Shown one piece after another: positions 30,150-53,312 of a DNA stretch of 64,000 bases. A model generated the notes under the pieces. That model did no database searches, had not been told where the DNA came from, and saw nothing but the letters and a program-made list of their open reading frames with translations. This DNA is from Polyangiaceae bacterium (lineage in GTDB: Bacteria; Myxococcota_A; Polyangia; Polyangiales; Polyangiaceae). Position 1 is the stretch's first letter, and every line of letters begins with the position of its first letter. The translations under genes were made by a program, and so were the position numbers. The stretch is taken from the NCBI GenBank assembly GCA_947475525.1, contig CANJMI010000006.1:124001-188000 (forward strand), read 5' to 3'.

Positions 30150-30869
30150 ATGAAGTCCGTATCCGGTGGCTGCGAGATCCCGCGAGAGCTTACCCTCCGC
30201 CTCCGCCGCGCGATCCCTGAGCCTTTTTGCGAGCTCGAGCATGCGAACGCCTGGCAGCTCTTGGTGGCGACGATCCTGAGCGCACAGAGCACCGACAAGA
30301 CCGTGAACCGCGTGACCCCGGAGCTCTTCGCGCGATGGCCAGGGCCGGCCGAGCTCGCTCGGGCCGACCTCGCCGCTGTCGAGTCCGTCGTCAAGCCAAC
30401 CGGCTTTTTTCGAAACAAGGCGAAGGCGATTCGCGGCACAGCCGAGGCCGTCATGGCGCTCTTCGACGGCGAAGTCCCGCGATCCATCGAGGAGCTGACG
30501 AAGCTCCCCGGCGTCGCGCGCAAGACCGCCAACGTCGTGCTCGGCACCGCCTTCGGACTCGCGAGCGGCATCGCGGTCGATACTCACGTCGGACGCGTGG
30601 CGCGGCGCCTTGGGCTGACCGACGAGAGCTCCCCCGAAAAAGTCGAGCGGGCCCTCTGTGAAGCCATCCCGCGGGAAGCCTGGGTCGCAGACGGTCATCG
30701 TTTGCTCCTCCACGGACGCTACGTGTGCCTCGCCAAGACGCCGGGCTGTGAACGCTGCCCGCTCAATGAACTCTGCCCGAGTCGTGATGGTTCGCCAGAC
30801 GGCCCTTGGGATGAACGCGCCGAGCTCGAGCGACGCTCGGTCGAGTCGCGCGGCGCGCAATTGGTGTAG
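30150..30869 (+). CDS. nth: Endonuclease III (DNA glycosylase/AP lyase)
   Basis: Removes oxidised pyrimidines and cuts at abasic sites. 239 residues from ATG at 30150. The helix-hairpin-helix (LPGVARKTA) includes catalytic Lys125, and Asp144 (VDTHVGR) is the second catalytic residue (E. coli K120 and D138). The [4Fe-4S] cluster is complete: C193-x6-C200-x2-C203-x5-C209. Upstream starts overlap the divergent gene and are not used. It ends 13 bp before glnS, so the two may share a transcript. Confidence 0.96.
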   Translation: MKSVSGGCEIPRELTLRLRRAIPEPFCELEHANAWQLLVATILSAQSTDKTVNRVTPELFARWPGPAELARADLAAVESVVKPTGFFRNKAKAIRGTAEAVMALFDGEVPRSIEELTKLPGVARKTANVVLGTAFGLASGIAVDTHVGRVARRLGLTDESSPEKVERALCEAIPREAWVADGHRLLLHGRYVCLAKTPGCERCPLNELCPSRDGSPDGPWDERAELERRSVESRGAQLV

Positions 30870-30882
30870 GCTCCGCGGCCCC

Positions 30883-33174
<2,292 letters not shown>

Positions 33175-33273
33175 CGCAGCGCCCTGGTTTTTTTGGCGCG
33201 CCCCTTCGTTTCGCACGCAAATGCGGGCCCACTGCGGCTCTCAGCTTGCATCGATCCGCCATTGCCCCATAAA

Positions 33274-35016
33274 ATGAAGGCTATGCTTGGATCTGCACGC
33301 CGCACCTTTTCTTGGCGCAACTCCCTCAAACTCGCGTGCGTTGCGCTCGGCGGACTGGGCACGATAGGCACGTTGACCGGCGCTTGTTACGAGCCGTCGG
33401 ACACCTTTCCGAACTGGTCCTTCAACACCGTGACCCACAGCTCCTCCTCGACCGGGACGGGTGGGGCCGGCGGAATGGGCGGAATGGGCGGAATGGGCGG
33501 AATGGGCGGGAGCGGCGGCAGCGTGGCTGAGCTCGACTGCTCGACGACGAGTCCGCTCGACAATCGCACCTATTTCGTCGAGTGCGTTCTCGGCAATCCT
33601 CAGAAAAACCTCGCGCCGGGCGGCGGCATGAAGTCGGACGGCGTCGAAGGCAACTGTGTCAGCGGCAATTGCCACCTCAGCGGCAACATCAATTTCCTCG
33701 CGCTCGACGGCATCGAGTACGAGACGATTTCCGCCTTCCTGTCCGAGTCGACGGGCAAAGGTTTCATCGTCAAGAACCCGCTGACGAAGAGCCGCCTCAT
33801 CACCTACCCAGGACTCCTCGACCACGCCGGCGGCAGGAAATGGAAGCCGGAGGATCCCAAAGACCCTCTCTACCAGCTCTACGTGAACACGCTGACGTGG
33901 CTCGAGCGCGAAGCCCTCAACGTCAAAGAAGAGACCGTCATCGAGACGGAGATCGTCAATCCGAAAGGCCCATCGGACACCGAGCACCCGACGCCGGAAG
34001 GCTTCGTCTACCTCCCGCTCGACTACGTCGCCGACCAAACCGGTGACGTGAAGCTCGTCGGCGCGGCAATCTCCTTCTTCTCGATTGCCCACTCGGATTC
34101 CCTGCTCGAGTTATCGGACATCAAAGTCTGGCCGGCGCCTGGGGTGGGCATCGAGATCAAGGACATGGGCATCAAGGTCGTCCCGCCGCCAAGCAGCCAA
34201 AAGCCCGCCTCGCTCAACACGCAACTCTACGGTGACGCCGTGAAGTTCGTGGCACCGAAGAACGTGACTTACGGGTCGGGCCAGATCCTCCTGACGAACT
34301 GGCAGAAGGGCGGCAGCATGTTCATCCAGTTCAAGAGCATCCGTTCTCTTCTCGCCGATAAGTTCGGCAACGCCTTCGAGCCGTGCGTCGACAGCGGAGC
34401 CTTCGCCGCTGCAGTCAAGAAGCTCCCCTACGACAAGTTCAACTGCGACAAGCCGAACGGGCTCGCCTACTGCGGTCGCATGTGTCACGGCGGCTCCGAC
34501 TACACCGTGGACACGACGAAGCTCTCGACGAAGATGAACCTCTACCCGATCTTGTCGGCTTCGCAGGACATCGAACTCGCGTGCGCGATCGCCCGCCCCT
34601 ACATCACCCCCGGTGCTCCCGCGACATCGATACTCGTGGGCCTTCCCGATCCGGCGGTTCCCGGCAACCTCGCCGACAAGAAGACGCATGCGTTCTTCAA
34701 GTTTTGTGGTTCGACGACGTCGCACGCCACCTTCAAGAACACGATGTCTCCGTGGATCTGCGCCGAGAGTGTCACCTCCCTCTGCGGCAGCAAATGCGTC
34801 GACACAAAGACGAGCCTCACGAACTGCGGCTCCTGCGGCACGACGTGCAGCGGCATGGCGAACGAAGTGTGCTCAGACGGCTTCTGCACCTGCGCTAAAG
34901 GTGCAAAGGTGTGCAGCAACGTGTGCCTGGACGTGCAGAAAGACGTGAACAATTGCGGCGAATGCGGCAAGGTTTGCGCAGCGCCGATGACCTGCAGCGC
35001 CGGCGTCTGCAAGTGA
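33274..35016 (+). CDS. Cys-rich lipoprotein with CX4CH and CX3CH motifs
   Basis: 580 residues from ATG at 33274 (a second ATG lies at 33283). Signal with lipobox LTGAC, then a Ser/Gly linker with GGM repeats. Residues 128-134 read CVSGNCH (C-x4-C-H) and 400-405 CGRMCH (C-x3-C-H), each followed by sequence with the layout of membrane-associated planctomycete-type cytochrome domains (PGLLDHAGG...WLEREA; ITPGAPATSILVG). The C-terminus (about 505-580) has Cys repeats of type NCGSCGTTC and NCGECGKVC, a pattern common in secreted myxobacterial proteins. Haem binding through widened spacings is possible but unproven. No named family is assigned. Confidence 0.82.
   Translation: MKAMLGSARRTFSWRNSLKLACVALGGLGTIGTLTGACYEPSDTFPNWSFNTVTHSSSSTGTGGAGGMGGMGGMGGMGGSGGSVAELDCSTTSPLDNRTYFVECVLGNPQKNLAPGGGMKSDGVEGNCVSGNCHLSGNINFLALDGIEYETISAFLSESTGKGFIVKNPLTKSRLITYPGLLDHAGGRKWKPEDPKDPLYQLYVNTLTWLEREALNVKEETVIETEIVNPKGPSDTEHPTPEGFVYLPLDYVADQTGDVKLVGAAISFFSIAHSDSLLELSDIKVWPAPGVGIEIKDMGIKVVPPPSSQKPASLNTQLYGDAVKFVAPKNVTYGSGQILLTNWQKGGSMFIQFKSIRSLLADKFGNAFEPCVDSGAFAAAVKKLPYDKFNCDKPNGLAYCGRMCHGGSDYTVDTTKLSTKMNLYPILSASQDIELACAIARPYITPGAPATSILVGLPDPAVPGNLADKKTHAFFKFCGSTTSHATFKNTMSPWICAESVTSLCGSKCVDTKTSLTNCGSCGTTCSGMANEVCSDGFCTCAKGAKVCSNVCLDVQKDVNNCGECGKVCAAPMTCSAGVCK
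33469..33504 (+). repeat. Four tandem 9-bp units encoding Gly-Gly-Met
   Basis: GGCGGAATG is repeated four times without change in the coding sequence of the linker behind the lipobox. Exact copies suggest recent slippage, so the number of units may vary between strains. It is in frame and length changes by 3 residues per unit. Confidence 0.85.
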
Positions 35017-35036
35017 GCATCGTTCGACCCGCACGG

Positions 35037-35062
35037 CGCCCGGGGGCTTTACGACCCGGGCG
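35037..35062. terminator. GC hairpin between convergent genes, possible bidirectional terminator
   Basis: CGCCCGGG (35037-35044) and CCCGGGCG (35055-35062) form an 8-bp perfect stem with a 10-base loop, placed exactly between the stop of the Cys-rich lipoprotein gene and the stop of the PLD-like gene that points the other way. There is no T run on either side, so it is a weak intrinsic terminator or only a pausing or processing site. Confidence 0.45.
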
Positions 35063-36310
35063 TCAGTTTGCGATGCGTGGCGGCTCGTAGCCTTTATCGG
35101 GGTCGACAGCCTCGCTCAACGGACTCGCGACCAAACCTTCGAAGACCGTCGTCAGCTGCCGTGCGAGCCGTAGTGAATTCACGAGCGCGCCGACGTTGCG
35201 GCTCTTGAAGAAATAGTCTCCACCCCAGTTGCTGGTGCCGAGCCAGACTTGGGTGTCATCGATCACCATGTACTTCGCGTGAACCACCCGCGCGAAGGGG
35301 ATGTGGCCTCCCGCGGCCTCGGGGATGTTGACGAACCGCACGGCGATCCCTGGAACGCGCGCGAGGGCGAGCGCGGCGCCGAGTTTCTTCGGCGACTTTT
35401 GCCAATTCGAAAGCATCACCTGTACCTTGACGCCGCGCACCGCCGCACGGCGCAAGGCTGCGTCGAGCACGTCGAACGTTGCGCCATCGTGGCCGACCGT
35501 CTCGAAGCTGAGCAGCTGCACGCGCACGTCCGTTTTCGCCGAGTCGAGCGCCGAGACAATACGGTCGAGGTCCCAGAACCGCGGCTCCGCGACGTAGCCT
35601 CTCGGACTGAGCAGCGGCCAGACGGCCTCGTCGCCGAGGAGCTCGGGCGTCATCGGATCACCGAGCGCGCGCGCCGCAGCCGCCTCACCACCGGAGGCCG
35701 CCCAGTCGGCATCGAACGCCGAAAGAAAGACGCCGGCGACGCGACGCGAACGAACACGCAGCCCGAGTTCGTGGATGTGGTCGAGTGAACGCCAGTCGAA
35801 ATTCGCGCTTCCGAAGTAGGCGTCTTCTTCGTCGATCACCATGTATTTTGCGTGCAAAACGCCACCCATCGACTTTGCGGCATCGAACTCGCGGATGGAA
35901 ACGCCAAGCCCTCGCAACCGCTCCACGGAGGCTGGATACTTCTTCGAGAAACTCGCATCGACAAGGAAGCGCACGTTGACTCCGCGCTTCACGGCAAGAG
36001 CGAGCTCGTCAATCACCGGCTGCAGGCGGTCCGTGCCCGCAACCTCGGCGGGCTTCTCCGAGACGTAGAACTGCCCAATCGCCACCGTGTGTTTGGCGGC
36101 CGCAATCATCTCGCGCCAGGTCGCGTCCGTGTTGGCGATGGCCGGATCGTCCGCCATCGAACCTTGCGGCACAGACTCGACAAGCGTCACCGCGCGAACG
36201 GGTTGGGCGCGAACTTCCGAGCGACCCGCCCTAGCCTCGATTCGCGCCGTCACTGGAACCGGTCCGCACGCGAGGAGCGCGCAGGACACCCAAAAAATCG
36301 ACCGAGCCAT
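35063..36310 (-). CDS. PLD3/PLD4-like phospholipase D-superfamily lipoprotein
   Basis: 415 residues. Signal peptide with lipobox LLACG (Cys15). Two HKD motifs: H153-x-K155-x4-D160 (HAKYMVID) and H344-x-K346-x4-D351 (HAKYMVID). Order and wording follow the PLD3/PLD4/poxvirus K4 family: LVESVPQG near the start, FGSANFDWRSLDHIHELG after the first HKD, RGVKVQVMLSNWQKS in the middle, IPFARVVHAKYM before the second HKD, and GTSNWGGDYFF after it. Family members are membrane-anchored nucleases or lipid-transphosphatidylases. Its activity here is unknown. It lies 38 bp after the TssC-like gene on the same strand. Confidence 0.88.
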   Translation of the reverse strand: MARSIFWVSCALLACGPVPVTARIEARAGRSEVRAQPVRAVTLVESVPQGSMADDPAIANTDATWREMIAAAKHTVAIGQFYVSEKPAEVAGTDRLQPVIDELALAVKRGVNVRFLVDASFSKKYPASVERLRGLGVSIREFDAAKSMGGVLHAKYMVIDEEDAYFGSANFDWRSLDHIHELGLRVRSRRVAGVFLSAFDADWAASGGEAAAARALGDPMTPELLGDEAVWPLLSPRGYVAEPRFWDLDRIVSALDSAKTDVRVQLLSFETVGHDGATFDVLDAALRRAAVRGVKVQVMLSNWQKSPKKLGAALALARVPGIAVRFVNIPEAAGGHIPFARVVHAKYMVIDDTQVWLGTSNWGGDYFFKSRNVGALVNSLRLARQLTTVFEGLVASPLSEAVDPDKGYEPPRIAN

Positions 36311-36348
36311 CGGGCGGCAGCATACCTAAAGTGAAGGCGAGCGAGGGG

Positions 36349-38172
36349 TCACTCCTTGTCGAGGCGGCCGACGAACCCCACATCAAATTCCGCACCCATG
36401 TAACGAAAGTGCGGGCGCAAGACGACGTCGACCTTGTACCAGCCGGCGTTTCCCGCGACGTCACTCACGCTAATTTTCGCCTTGCGCAGCGGACGTCGCG
36501 CGCGGACGCCGGGGGCCACGGAAGCCTGGTCGGCGACGAATTGATTGATCCATTTTTGCAGCTCGCGCTCGAGATCTTGGCGCTCTTTCCACGCGCCGAT
36601 CTGTTCTCGCTGAAGCACCTTCAGGTAGTGCGCGATGCGACTGCTGATGAACAGGTACGGCAGCCGCGTGCCGAGTCGGTGGTTCAGCCCGGCTGTACGA
36701 GCCTCGTCGCTGATACCGAAGTATTTCGGCTTCTGACAGCTATTCGCCGAGAAAAAACACGCGTTTTCTGTTTCGCGCCGGTACGTGAGTGGGATGAAGC
36801 CCTGCTCGGAGATCTCGAACTCGCGGCGCTCCGTGACGACAATTTCGGTCGGAATTTTGGTCTGGATCGCCCCCATCGCTTCGAAGCGATGCAGCGGGAG
36901 GTCTTCGACGGTGCCCCCGGTGTTGGGTCCCACGATGTTTGGGCACCAGCGAAAGCGCGCGAAGCTATCGGCTACCCGTGTCGCAAAGGCGAAGGCCGCG
37001 TTGCCCCACAAATAGCGGTCATGGCAGCCGACGACGTCCTCTTCGTATTCGAAGGCTCGCACGCGCGTCGTCGTCGGGCCATATGGGAGGCGTAAGAGGA
37101 AGCGCGGCATGCAGAGCGCGACGTAGCGGGAGTCGTCGGAGTCTCGGAATGCGCGCCATTTCGTGTATTGCGGACCTTCAAAGAGCGACGTGATGTCGTT
37201 CAATTGCGGCAGCCCGAGGACCTCATCGAGACCGAAAAATTTCGGCCCGGCCGCGGCGATGAAAGGCGCGTGGGCCATCGTGGCGACCGACGCGCACTTG
37301 TCGAGGAGGAAGATGTCCTGAGCGAGCGGAGTGAAATCGTAGTTCGCGACGAGCAGTCCGTAAGGCCTGCCACCGAACACGCCGTATTCGGCCGAATAGC
37401 AGATCTTGTACATGCCGCTCTTGGCGACTTCGGGGGAGTCTTGAAAATCTTCGAGCAAGTCACGCTTGCTGACGTTCAAGAACTCGATGCGAATGTTCTC
37501 GCGAAAGTTCACGCGGTCGACCACGAACTGGAGTTGACGCCATGCGGCCTCGAGCGCCTGAAATCCCTTATCGTGCAAGATCAGATCGATTTGCAGCGTC
37601 ATGCTCGCTGTCATCGACGCGATCAACAGATCGACCAGGGGGTTGTCTACGAGTGAGGCATCGATACCGAGGCTGGTGACGTAAGCCAGGATGCTGCGCA
37701 GCCCGACATCGACGAGGTCATGTTGCGGCACGCCAGCGGGAATGCCGGAGAGCGCGAGCAGCTCATCGATAAGCCCCTTTGAGGTCGAGGCCTCCGCGAT
37801 CTCGTCGAGGCTCGGGGCCGTCGCGACGTTATCGAAACTCGGCGCACTCGAAGCGACGCTCGGGAGCGGCGGTGGCGCGGAGGCTTGCGGCGGCGCGGAG
37901 GCTTGCGGCGGCGCGGAGGCTTGCGGTGGCGCGGAGGCTTGCGGCGGCGCGGAGGCTTGCGGCGGTGGCGCGGCAGCTTGCGGCGGCGGCGGCGCGGAGG
38001 CTTGCGGCGGCGGCGCGGAGGCTTGCGGCGGTGGTGCGCCCCAGCCTGGCGGCGCGGAGGCTTGCGGCGGTGGTGCGCCCCAGCCGGGCGGCGCGGAGGC
38101 TTGCGGCGGTGGTGCTACGGCTGCGAGCCCTGTATCTGGCGAGGAACCATCCTCTTCGCGCTCACCTGCCAT
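36349..38172 (-). CDS. tssC: TssC (VipB-like) contractile sheath protein, orphan, with QASAPP-repeat N-terminus
   Basis: 607 residues. The C-terminal ~495 residues match the type VI sheath large subunit: FQALEAAWRQLQFVV, YGVFGGRPYGLLVANYDF, RDSDDSRYVALCMPRFLLRLPYG (in part), EIVVTERREFEISEQGFIPLT, CFFSANSCQKPK, SRIAHYLKVLQREQIG and LRPHF near the end, all in the family order. The first ~110 residues are a Pro/Gln/Ala-rich region built from ten QASAPP-like repeats, which normal TssC lacks. No tssB, hcp, clpV or baseplate gene is in the window. It follows a PilZ gene by 56 bp and precedes the PLD-like lipoprotein gene by 38 bp, all on the same strand. Confidence 0.92.
   Translation of the reverse strand: MAGEREEDGSSPDTGLAAVAPPPQASAPPGWGAPPPQASAPPGWGAPPPQASAPPPQASAPPPPQAAAPPPQASAPPQASAPPQASAPPQASAPPQASAPPPLPSVASSAPSFDNVATAPSLDEIAEASTSKGLIDELLALSGIPAGVPQHDLVDVGLRSILAYVTSLGIDASLVDNPLVDLLIASMTASMTLQIDLILHDKGFQALEAAWRQLQFVVDRVNFRENIRIEFLNVSKRDLLEDFQDSPEVAKSGMYKICYSAEYGVFGGRPYGLLVANYDFTPLAQDIFLLDKCASVATMAHAPFIAAAGPKFFGLDEVLGLPQLNDITSLFEGPQYTKWRAFRDSDDSRYVALCMPRFLLRLPYGPTTTRVRAFEYEEDVVGCHDRYLWGNAAFAFATRVADSFARFRWCPNIVGPNTGGTVEDLPLHRFEAMGAIQTKIPTEIVVTERREFEISEQGFIPLTYRRETENACFFSANSCQKPKYFGISDEARTAGLNHRLGTRLPYLFISSRIAHYLKVLQREQIGAWKERQDLERELQKWINQFVADQASVAPGVRARRPLRKAKISVSDVAGNAGWYKVDVVLRPHFRYMGAEFDVGFVGRLDKE
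37873..38108 (-). repeat. In-frame 18-bp tandem repeats (QASAPP units)
   Basis: About ten units of an 18-bp period encode QASAPP or QAAAPP, with some units interrupted by GWGAPP or extra Pro codons. The period is 6 residues and the copies are nearly identical at DNA level, so slippage is likely and the region is a candidate for strain-to-strain length variation. On the opposite strand it gives a Gly/Ala/Cys-rich frame that is not a gene. Confidence 0.9.
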
Positions 38173-38228
38173 CGTTCATTCCGCAGTTCCGAGAAGACAC
38201 CGATGCTAACGCGTTTTCAGAGCGGGCG

Positions 38229-38636
38229 TCACGTGCTGCGGCGCGTCGGGCCGGCCGAACGCGCAACGGATTCAGCTGCCGCGATAGCTTCCATCAGCAG
38301 GTGGACCTCGCGGTCGCCCAAGCGGAAAAATTGAACGCCCACTGCCGTACGTCGGTCCCAACGGACGACGGAACGGAGGCTTATCTCCTCGTCGATTCCG
38401 AAAACCCGCATGAAAATCCGCAGTCGCGTGCCGAGCTCGAACGAGCCTCCGCGTGAGGTTTCAAGCATCGCGCCCGCGAGGGTGAACTCGCTCAGCCAGC
38501 CCGGGATCCGTTCATCGACCCCGATGACCTGAAATTCGACGGGCAGAGGCTGGGGCCGCCCAGGGCGCCGCTTCGATATCGCTCCAAGTTCTTCCGCCAT
38601 GTCCTTGCCCGGCGCGAAGTCTACCCCGACGCGCAC
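38229..38636 (-). CDS. PilZ-domain protein
   Basis: About 135 residues with GTG at 38636; an ATG at 38600 would remove 12 residues. R-x3-R is visible (KRRPGRP), and beta-strand patterns of a PilZ barrel follow (PLPVEFQVIG, TLAGAMLET, LRIFMRVFG, SVVRWDRRTAVGVQF), but the second signature D-x-S-x-x-G reads as EFTLAG, so c-di-GMP binding is uncertain. It is the first of three same-strand genes, PilZ - TssC - PLD-like, with short gaps; probably one operon. Confidence 0.75.
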   Translation of the reverse strand: MRVGVDFAPGKDMAEELGAISKRRPGRPQPLPVEFQVIGVDERIPGWLSEFTLAGAMLETSRGGSFELGTRLRIFMRVFGIDEEISLRSVVRWDRRTAVGVQFFRLGDREVHLLMEAIAAAESVARSAGPTRRST

Positions 38637-52250: not shown

Positions 52251-53312
52251 CTAGAGGGTCACGCGGAAGAGCTGCTGCCCCATGAGAAGAATGTCGCCAT
52301 TTTTCAATTCATGGTCGCCGAGCAATTGGACGAAGGTCCCGTTCGAGCTGCCGAGGTCAGTGACGAAGACCTCGCCGTTCTCTTGGTTGACGCGGCAGTG
52401 CAGCCCCGAGACGTAGCCGTCGTCGGCGAACGTCACGTCGCCCCGCTCGCGGCCGAAGTGAAGCCCGTGCGCGGGAACAGGAACGCTGGGCGCGCGCGTT
52501 TTACGGCCGATGACCAGGCTGACGCGGCCGATGATCCCGTCGAGCGCCGCGCCTTGGTGAACGACACCGTCGGCATCGGCTTCACGGCCCGAAAGCGTCT
52601 CGAATACGAGCAATTCCTGGCCAATTCGGAAGCATTGACCAGGCTTTAGCGGCGCGCGCTGCTCGGCGAGCAACTTGCGGAAGACGCCGTTGAGCGAGGC
52701 GGCATCGCCTACCGTGACGCGCCCGTCGTTGGCAACGAATCGCGCGTGCTTCGGCGACAAGAAGGCGTCATTTCCGAAGACCCCACCGGTCTCGCGCCCG
52801 ACGAAGCTCTCGCCGCGCGGCAGTTCATGGCGGCCGATGTCATTGCCCTCGGCATCGAGCGCAACCAGGACGACTCCGCTCGTTTCAACTGGAGTGACCG
52901 GCTTCGCGCTTGGAGCGAGAACGGCCTTTTTTACCTCCAGCTTGCAGCCGCACGACGCGCAAAAACGGTTCGATGGCGGGTTGTCTGTTTTGCACTCGGG
53001 GCAAAGCCCGGGTGGGCTCTCCGGGGCTACGGGCATCGGGGCCGGAGCTACGGGCATCGCGGCCGGAGCGGCCTGCGGCGCCGCCGAGCGTGGAGCCGAG
53101 GACCCAACGGCCGAGCGCGTCACGGGAGAGGCCGAGCGCGTCACGGGAGAGGCCGAGCGCGTCGACACGGCCACACCGCTGCCGAGCGTGGTCGGGTCCT
53201 CGATGGCGGGCTCCGGTTTCGCGGCAGTACCGCGTGAAAGCTCGGCGCCGCAACCGAGACAAAATCGGTAGTGGTCTTGGTTTTGCTTAGCGCAGGATGA
53301 GCAACTGATCAC
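52251..53312 (-). CDS. Protein with two zinc ribbons and two FHA domains
   Basis: 353 residues, GTG start at 53312. Two CxxC pairs near the start (CSSCAKQ...CLGCGAE) and again at about 100-125 (CPECKTD...CASCGCK) form zinc ribbons, separated by a Ser/Pro/Ala-rich linker with SASPVTR repeats. At about 155-225 an FHA domain (FVGRETGG..LSPKHARFV) and at about 270-340 a second (FGRERGDVTF..VSGLHCRVN, GSSNGTFVQ) follow. FHA domains bind phosphothreonine, so it may link to the Ser/Thr kinases. Common domain set in Myxococcota signalling proteins. Confidence 0.88.
   Translation of the reverse strand: MISCSSCAKQNQDHYRFCLGCGAELSRGTAAKPEPAIEDPTTLGSGVAVSTRSASPVTRSASPVTRSAVGSSAPRSAAPQAAPAAMPVAPAPMPVAPESPPGLCPECKTDNPPSNRFCASCGCKLEVKKAVLAPSAKPVTPVETSGVVLVALDAEGNDIGRHELPRGESFVGRETGGVFGNDAFLSPKHARFVANDGRVTVGDAASLNGVFRKLLAEQRAPLKPGQCFRIGQELLVFETLSGREADADGVVHQGAALDGIIGRVSLVIGRKTRAPSVPVPAHGLHFGRERGDVTFADDGYVSGLHCRVNQENGEVFVTDLGSSNGTFVQLLGDHELKNGDILLMGQQLFRVTL
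53109..53150 (-). repeat. Two 21-bp direct repeats in the FHA gene linker
   Basis: GGCCGAGCGCGTCACGGGAGA occurs twice in tandem (53109-53129, 53130-53150), with part of a third copy after it, encoding the SASPVTR repeats of the linker. It is in frame and identical at DNA level, so it is a recent duplication. Confidence 0.8.

Follow-up and report, generated by a model that had tools for sequence, protein, structure and literature searches.

A dispersed TssC paralogue in Polyangiaceae, a probable accessory subunit of the type VI secretion sheath

A TssC gene outside the type VI secretion locus

What is a full-length sheath protein of a type VI secretion system (T6SS) doing in a stretch of DNA that holds no other T6SS gene? 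The stretch in question, here called the window, is a 64-kb piece (contig C6:124001-188000) of the 5.15 Mb genome of a Polyangiaceae bacterium (G000, 98.9% complete). Three minus-strand genes at 35063-38636 of the window encode a PilZ-domain protein, a full-length TssC and a PLD-family lipoprotein, with gaps of 56 bp (PilZ-TssC) and 38 bp (TssC-PLD). An earlier note on this DNA, whose description of the three genes is borne out by open reading frames and profile searches, had seen in them a candidate for an undescribed system. We find instead that the TssC is a surplus, dispersed paralogue of T6SS TssC, and that it is probably an accessory sheath subunit. The gene and its N-terminal extension are located as follows.

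36349..38172, minus strand: dispersed, putatively accessory TssC paralogue of 607 aa (VipB, VipB_2, TIGR03355, tree position, dN/dS)
37834..38172, minus strand: proline-rich N-terminal extension of this TssC, about 113 aa (from the alignment; the C7 TssC has no such extension)

The window TssC scores 396.7 bits with VipB and 135.4 bits with VipB_2, and TIGR03355 matches residues 144-605 with 613.7 bits (curated cut-off, 271.5), which makes the protein a member of the TssC family. Residues 1-114 include 37 prolines and 29 alanines, and tandem repeats of ~18 and ~39 bp lie under this proline-rich tail, within 37869-38115. The earlier statement that the 64 kb hold no tssB, hcp, vgrG, clpV or baseplate gene also stands: tblastn of the window (E 0.01) with query proteins from the T6SS locus of the same genome found no TssA, TssB, TssE, TssF, TssG, TssJ, TssK, TssL, TssM, Hcp or ClpV, and the VgrG-type profile PF05954 had no match on contig C6. 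Besides TssC, the search returned a weak 35-bit match (52332-52424) to the FHA protein of that locus, probably an unrelated FHA domain, and one 27-bit match.

A search of the rest of the genome, as the earlier note had proposed, revealed a complete T6SS locus on contig C7 (~191-218 kb), comprising TssB, TssC, TssA, TagF, TssJ, an FHA protein, TssM (scanned in part), TssL, TssK, a ClpV-type AAA+ protein, Hcp, TssE, TssF and TssG. Genome-wide, VipB gives four match rows that belong to three proteins: the window TssC, the 494-aa TssC of the C7 locus, and a divergent protein beside the latter. VipA matches only two proteins, the TssB of the C7 locus and, through its TssB portion, this divergent protein, a TssB-TssC fusion. 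Given the C7 locus and these matches, the genome contains a single conventional T6SS, for which the window TssC is surplus and not the only TssC; the window gene lies on C6, outside the T6SS locus that carries tssB. For this one T6SS core, the VgrG-type profile PF05954 has 21 match rows, which fall into 20 frames spread over many contigs.

The TssB-TssC fusion (L005:11351-13318, equivalent to C7:191350-193317) matches VipA at residues 61-184 and VipB with 132.9 bits, and has no VipB_2 match. Frames of this kind, counted by hand as VipA and VipB matches in the same frame, occur in at least 33 of the 108 family genomes; in 22 of the 33 the fusion frame is within 15 kb of a conventional TssC, and in Sorangium chromosomes it is ~100-370 kb away. 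A comparable fusion, TssCL, has been described in roseobacters, and its authors detected none outside Alphaproteobacteria (PMC9515649).

Distribution of dispersed TssC copies

All five genomes of the genus have a conventional TssC, a window-like TssC and the divergent fusion protein. Among the 108 genomes of the family, VipB is present in 65 and VipA in 65. In at least 17, a TssC is present while the examined stretch lacks tssB (G000-G004, G011, G020, G054-G056, G071, G099-G104). These dispersed copies span six genera and show no stops inside the matches. The count of 17 is a lower bound, because flanks were checked for VipB matches chosen by score and frame length (6, 19 and 18 flanking stretches, the 18 bringing 17 new loci). 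At four loci (L127, L128, L139, L142) the contig breaks off within or immediately upstream of the gene, so that an adjacent tssB is possible, and the copy was counted by its tree position; two of these four carriers, G001 and G004, have a matching PilZ gene at the end of another contig. The L128 copy is cut short at its N-terminal end, and the 16-sequence counts below do not include it.

T6SS sheath matches besides the copy are present in 17 of 17 carriers. All have VipA, and 16 have a full-length conventional TssC; in G104 the conventional TssC is a contig-edge piece and VipA occurs only in the fusion. The chance that 17 genomes drawn from 108 all fall among the 65 is 6.8e-5 under an assumption of independence that does not hold here. 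Across the order, two or more strong TssC-core matches are found in 18 of 183 genomes, namely the carriers other than G104, which has one (16 genomes), plus G115 and G133, whose extra copies sit in T6SS loci. In a scan of GTDB genomes, TssB is present in 75 of 80 loci, and the TssB-less ones are three copies of the genus (L007, L008, L015), the contig of the G020 copy (L024), and a locus cut just upstream of tssC beside Hcp, TssE and TssF (L056).

Two side observations concern other T6SS loci of these genomes. In L161, L162 and L163 (G060, G086 and G059) a T6SS-like TssC adjoins TssK, and four TssB queries found no TssB; perhaps the TssB of these loci is very divergent. One sister species of the genus has a second, different T6SS (L130, G002 C38).

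Origin of the copies

The window TssC is 64% identical to the C7 TssC over 474 residues. Trees nest it among Polyangiaceae T6SS TssC, on which ground an origin from a distant T6SS was rejected. Together with the C7 locus, this supports the alternative in the earlier note that a T6SS lies elsewhere and the window gene is a divergent paralogue. A FastTree (LG) of 115 TssC sequences placed the 17 copies in one weak clade (support 0.369) inside the Polyangiaceae T6SS TssC. Mixture-model trees of the core separated them into two clades. Clade A (the window's genus, G020 and G054-G056) adjoins the T6SS TssC of that lineage; clade B (G099-G104, G011 and G071) falls within a Sorangium-side group. The copies were joined in 0 of 200 bootstrap mixture-model trees, both with 17 copies and with 13 of 17. 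The approximately unbiased (AU) test gave p values against a single origin of 0.0475 with 17 copies and 0.0096 with a changed set (13 of 17 copies, 15 of 24 Polyangiaceae T6SS TssC). Bootstraps and AU test thus disfavour a single origin of all copies, and the trees favour two separate duplications, although they do not prove them.

A tandem tssB-tssC-tssC arrangement was seen within the T6SS locus of a genome from another family of the order (L212, G115 C37:56000-74000). In the tree, its second TssC groups with other T6SS TssC, apart from the dispersed copies.

A conserved wall and an altered outer layer

Purifying selection acts on the copies: four genome pairs gave dN/dS values of 0.06-0.23 for them and, in the same pairs, 0.02-0.11 for conventional C7-type TssC. 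These ratios are rough because dS is 0.6-1.4 for the TssC pairs (the row for TssB against G004 was ignored owing to a 14-column misalignment). The neighbouring genes gave 0.14 and 0.26 (PLD) and 0.15 and 0.48 (PilZ).

For comparison of individual residues we used canonical TssC sets that exclude 13 divergent TssC. Of 156 columns that are near-invariant in 85 canonical sequences, 98 are kept in all 16 complete copies. Over the core (303 conserved columns), agreement with Polyangiaceae TssC is 0.825 for the 16 copies and 0.828 for 39 core-matched canonical sequences. At the equivalents of VipB K223, needed for assembly, and D333, needed for contraction (PMC5797969), all 17 copies have K and E, respectively; canonical TssC have K in 84/85, E in 75/85 and D in 10/85. 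Residues 61-212, which fall within the part sufficient for TssB binding in other species (PMC3840085), show an agreement of 0.794 in the copies and 0.863 in 16 distant canonical TssC. One change is common to both clades: serine 355, S in 84/85 canonical sequences, is threonine in 16 of 17 copies. The near-invariant sites changed in both clades number four (hypergeometric probability 0.008, computed after the trees were seen).

The picture is different in residues 1-60, which make up much of the outer domain 3 (PMC5807055, PMC5797969, PMC4239648, PMC5048182). According to the same four papers, this domain includes a bundle with part of TssB, a helix reaching the neighbouring protofilament, and the ClpV-binding helix. 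The residue numbers for domain 3 and for K223/D333 come from other species, and their mapping onto the copies is our own. In the 32 columns of this region, agreement drops to 0.303 in the copies, compared with 0.550 in matched canonical TssC; by clade the values are 0.227 (A) and 0.379 (B), against a matched canonical range of 0.375-0.688. The alignment thus points to a divergence of domain 3 that is clear in clade A and partial in clade B. Between the window copy and its own genome's TssC, identity is 13% in residues 1-60 and 68% over the core. For two pairs of TssC from separate T6SS, with a core identity of 74-75%, the values in residues 1-60 are 34 and 41%. An LLDEII-type motif marks the ClpV-binding N-terminal helix (PMC4239648). 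It reads LIDELL in the window copy and ranges from LLDEVA to LVASIM in the others, the D being kept in 5 of 16. The proline-rich tail is not a general feature of the copies: those of Sorangium are without it if read from the ATG before the first helix.

A probable accessory sheath subunit

Because the wall is kept and under selection, the copy has been found only together with a T6SS, and the outer layer is altered, we consider it rather probable that the window protein is a dispersed accessory TssC, most likely pairing with the C7 TssB and entering T6SS sheaths as a minor or conditional subunit. TssB would be supplied in trans from the C7 locus. Since the wall core is retained and domain 3 is changed, with a proline-rich tail added, sheaths containing the accessory TssC should differ on the outside, in recognition and recycling by ClpV and in how protofilaments touch each other in the outer layer. 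PilZ and PLD are local neighbours of the copy. In V. cholerae, non-contractile mutant sheath subunits co-assemble with wild type (PMC5797969), so that mixed sheaths are possible in principle. The tandem arrangement in G115 shows that a second TssC can sit inside a T6SS cluster, and a published table counts each of the two TssC of Agrobacterium as essential for Hcp secretion (PMC3702570).

Several points weigh against this assignment. The shift in domain 3 is uneven, 7 of 8 clade A copies but only 3 of 8 in the Sorangium clade lying below every one of the 39 canonical sequences, and the domain 3 of the second TssC of G115 (35% identity to the first) is no more diverged than those of the two pairs from separate T6SS (34 and 41%) with similar core identity. 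A duplicate born in genomes that have a T6SS would to some extent be expected to occur together with one, and the count ignores kinship. In P. aeruginosa, a helix of TssC domain 3 touches the neighbouring protofilament (PMC5807055), so the divergence of this domain could mean that the copy no longer fits into the sheath. Finally, Agrobacterium TssB remains stable when TssC40, one of two TssC proteins, is lost (PMC3702570); an extra TssC need therefore not be the partner of TssB.

A bolder version of the accessory-subunit reading, which we put forward tentatively and would not be surprised to see fail, is that Polyangiaceae deliberately build heterogeneous sheaths from TssB/TssC, the TssB-TssC fusion and the accessory TssC in one cell. 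The accessory subunits would mark or modify particular sheaths from the outside, making them, for instance, ClpV-resistant or one-shot, and the dispersed TssC would have arisen at least twice independently.

A regulatory decoy or sheath poison, which would damp T6SS activity by binding TssB or by capping sheaths as they grow, might also be expected to have a kept core and a changed outer layer, together with the bulky proline-rich tail seen in the window's lineage, and one separate TssB gene only is available for titration. We consider this unlikely: there is no positive evidence for it, and the tail, being absent from Sorangium copies, cannot be the common mechanism. The faster evolution of the copies relative to C7-type TssC and the repetitive tail could instead indicate a slowly decaying duplicate of little function, but dN/dS is well below 1, the matches contain no stops, and the copy has been kept by every genus member and in six genera in all. 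Decay thus appears improbable, to much the same degree as the decoy or a shade more.

Comparison with known sheath proteins

Like canonical TssC/VipB proteins, here represented by V. cholerae VipB and by the TssC in PDB entry 5urw, which we take to be from M. xanthus, the window protein has full-length VipB and VipB_2 domains, and it retains the K223/D333 equivalents; its match to 5urw scores 648.7 bits. It differs from them in lying outside a T6SS locus, in having no adjacent tssB, in its diverged domain 3 and, in the window's lineage, in the proline-rich tail.

Extra TssC proteins within T6SS operons are already known from Agrobacterium and Tateyamaria. Agrobacterium has consecutive genes for TssC40 and TssC41, both listed as essential for Hcp secretion (PMC3702570), and thus also combines two TssC with one TssB in one T6SS; however, its two genes are located in the T6SS operon and their products have limited mutual homology, whereas the dispersed window copy shares 64% identity with the C7 TssC. 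The two-tssC clusters of Tateyamaria and the TssCL of roseobacters likewise provide sheath proteins in addition to tssB and tssC (PMC9515649), but these genes are within the T6SS cluster, and the pair of Tateyamaria TssC, with 34-37% in common, was held not to stem from a duplication (PMC9515649). TssCL resembles the Polyangiaceae TssB-TssC fusion rather than the dispersed TssC. An overview from 2017 calls the implication of additional tssC unclear (PMC5813230). In the literature searched we found neither a dispersed TssC with a rebuilt domain 3 nor the phrase 'orphan tssC'. A dispersed, selected and surface-altered TssC, probably of more than one origin, offers a direct way to test the tuning of sheath composition.

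Gene order around the copy

The genes next to the window TssC are as follows.

38229..38636, minus strand: PilZ-domain protein, 135 aa (PF07238, 28.7 bits; cut-off 22.5)
35063..36310, minus strand: PLD-family protein with a lipobox-like start, 415 aa (PF13091, PLDc_2, 124 bits; two HKD motifs)
33193..35016, plus strand: cysteine-rich (Stig1/MXAN_6577-like) protein, convergent with and adjoining the PLD gene (PF04885, 28 bits; NF041328, 56.7 bits, below the cut-off of 100)

The PLD protein has two complete HxKxxxxD motifs (HAKYMVID, at 153 and 344), and its lipobox-like start, judged by eye, is LLAC. The order of the three minus-strand genes, which the earlier note had read as a unit, is kept within the genus. 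PilZ is directly upstream of TssC in three of the five genomes and sits at a contig end, in a fitting orientation, in the remaining two (G001 and G004); PLD is downstream of TssC in 5 of 5, with one interruption, an opposite-strand beta-ketoacyl synthase in G003. Neither outcome that the earlier note had named as its refutation thus came about, since the genome has a further TssC and close relatives share the order. The order is not kept beyond the genus. There, a PLD gene within ~3 kb of the copy was found only in G054, with a ketoacyl synthase and a cysteine-rich gene in between, which brings the total to 6 of 17 carriers. PilZ matches score 85-176 bits in the sister species and at most 50 bits outside the genus. 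PLD relatives (E 1e-20) are present in 36 of 108 genomes, including 10 of the 17 carriers (none in G020 and G099-G104), and 7 of the 36 have no VipB match (G016, G058, G062, G063, G068, G095, G096). Nine PLD stretches from elsewhere, two of them shorter than 8 kb, contained no TssC. Recurrent neighbours of the copy in the Sorangium clade are an M13 peptidase and a P-type ATPase, and among the flanking genes compared no neighbour family is common to all carriers. The TssC copy is thus free-standing and the triplet is local synteny. A three-gene system is rejected beyond the genus: in other genera the TssC copy persists with neither PilZ nor PLD linked to it, and PLD persists without a TssC copy; the case illustrates how local synteny can be mistaken for a 'system'.

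These results bear on the suggestion, also made in the earlier note, of a sheath subunit recruited at the envelope, i.e. a copy that works without TssB in another polymer or scaffold together with the PLD lipoprotein. A position outside the T6SS locus, a strongly changed domain 3 in the window's clade and a PLD gene 38 bp downstream would all suit such a role. We nevertheless regard it as quite improbable: most carriers have no PLD gene near the copy and 7 of 17 have no PLD match at all (E 1e-20), the synthase gene separates the two in G003, the wall core and the assembly and contraction residues are retained, and no carrier lacks other T6SS sheath matches.

The hallmarks of PilZ domains that bind cyclic di-GMP are RxxxR and [DN]xSxxG. 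The window PilZ has the former, at 23-27, and is without the latter, which reads E/K-x-T-x-x-G in three sequences (the window and two sisters, the sisters by eye). Because of this, the case for the cyclic di-GMP control that the earlier note had envisaged is weak, and a genus-specific module in which PilZ senses cyclic di-GMP and tunes the window-type TssC is very improbable despite the position of PilZ in the genus, the more so with such low PilZ scores outside it.

A DISARM-type defence function through a DrmC-like PLD was rejected, the protein scoring 90.1 bits against a curated cut-off of 133 and 81.5 bits in its best PADLOC DrmC match; DISARM partner genes were sought among the six window proteins scanned by profile. 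A promoter and terminator scan was uninformative (0 hits versus 0.4 expected, and 3 versus 3.7). As a last observation, a GlnS-type gene, the cysteine-rich protein and PLD (30658-36310 in the window) remain near one another in the genus and likewise in G054, despite a different placement of TssC, and in G055 the cysteine-rich gene and PLD are found together on a contig without TssC.

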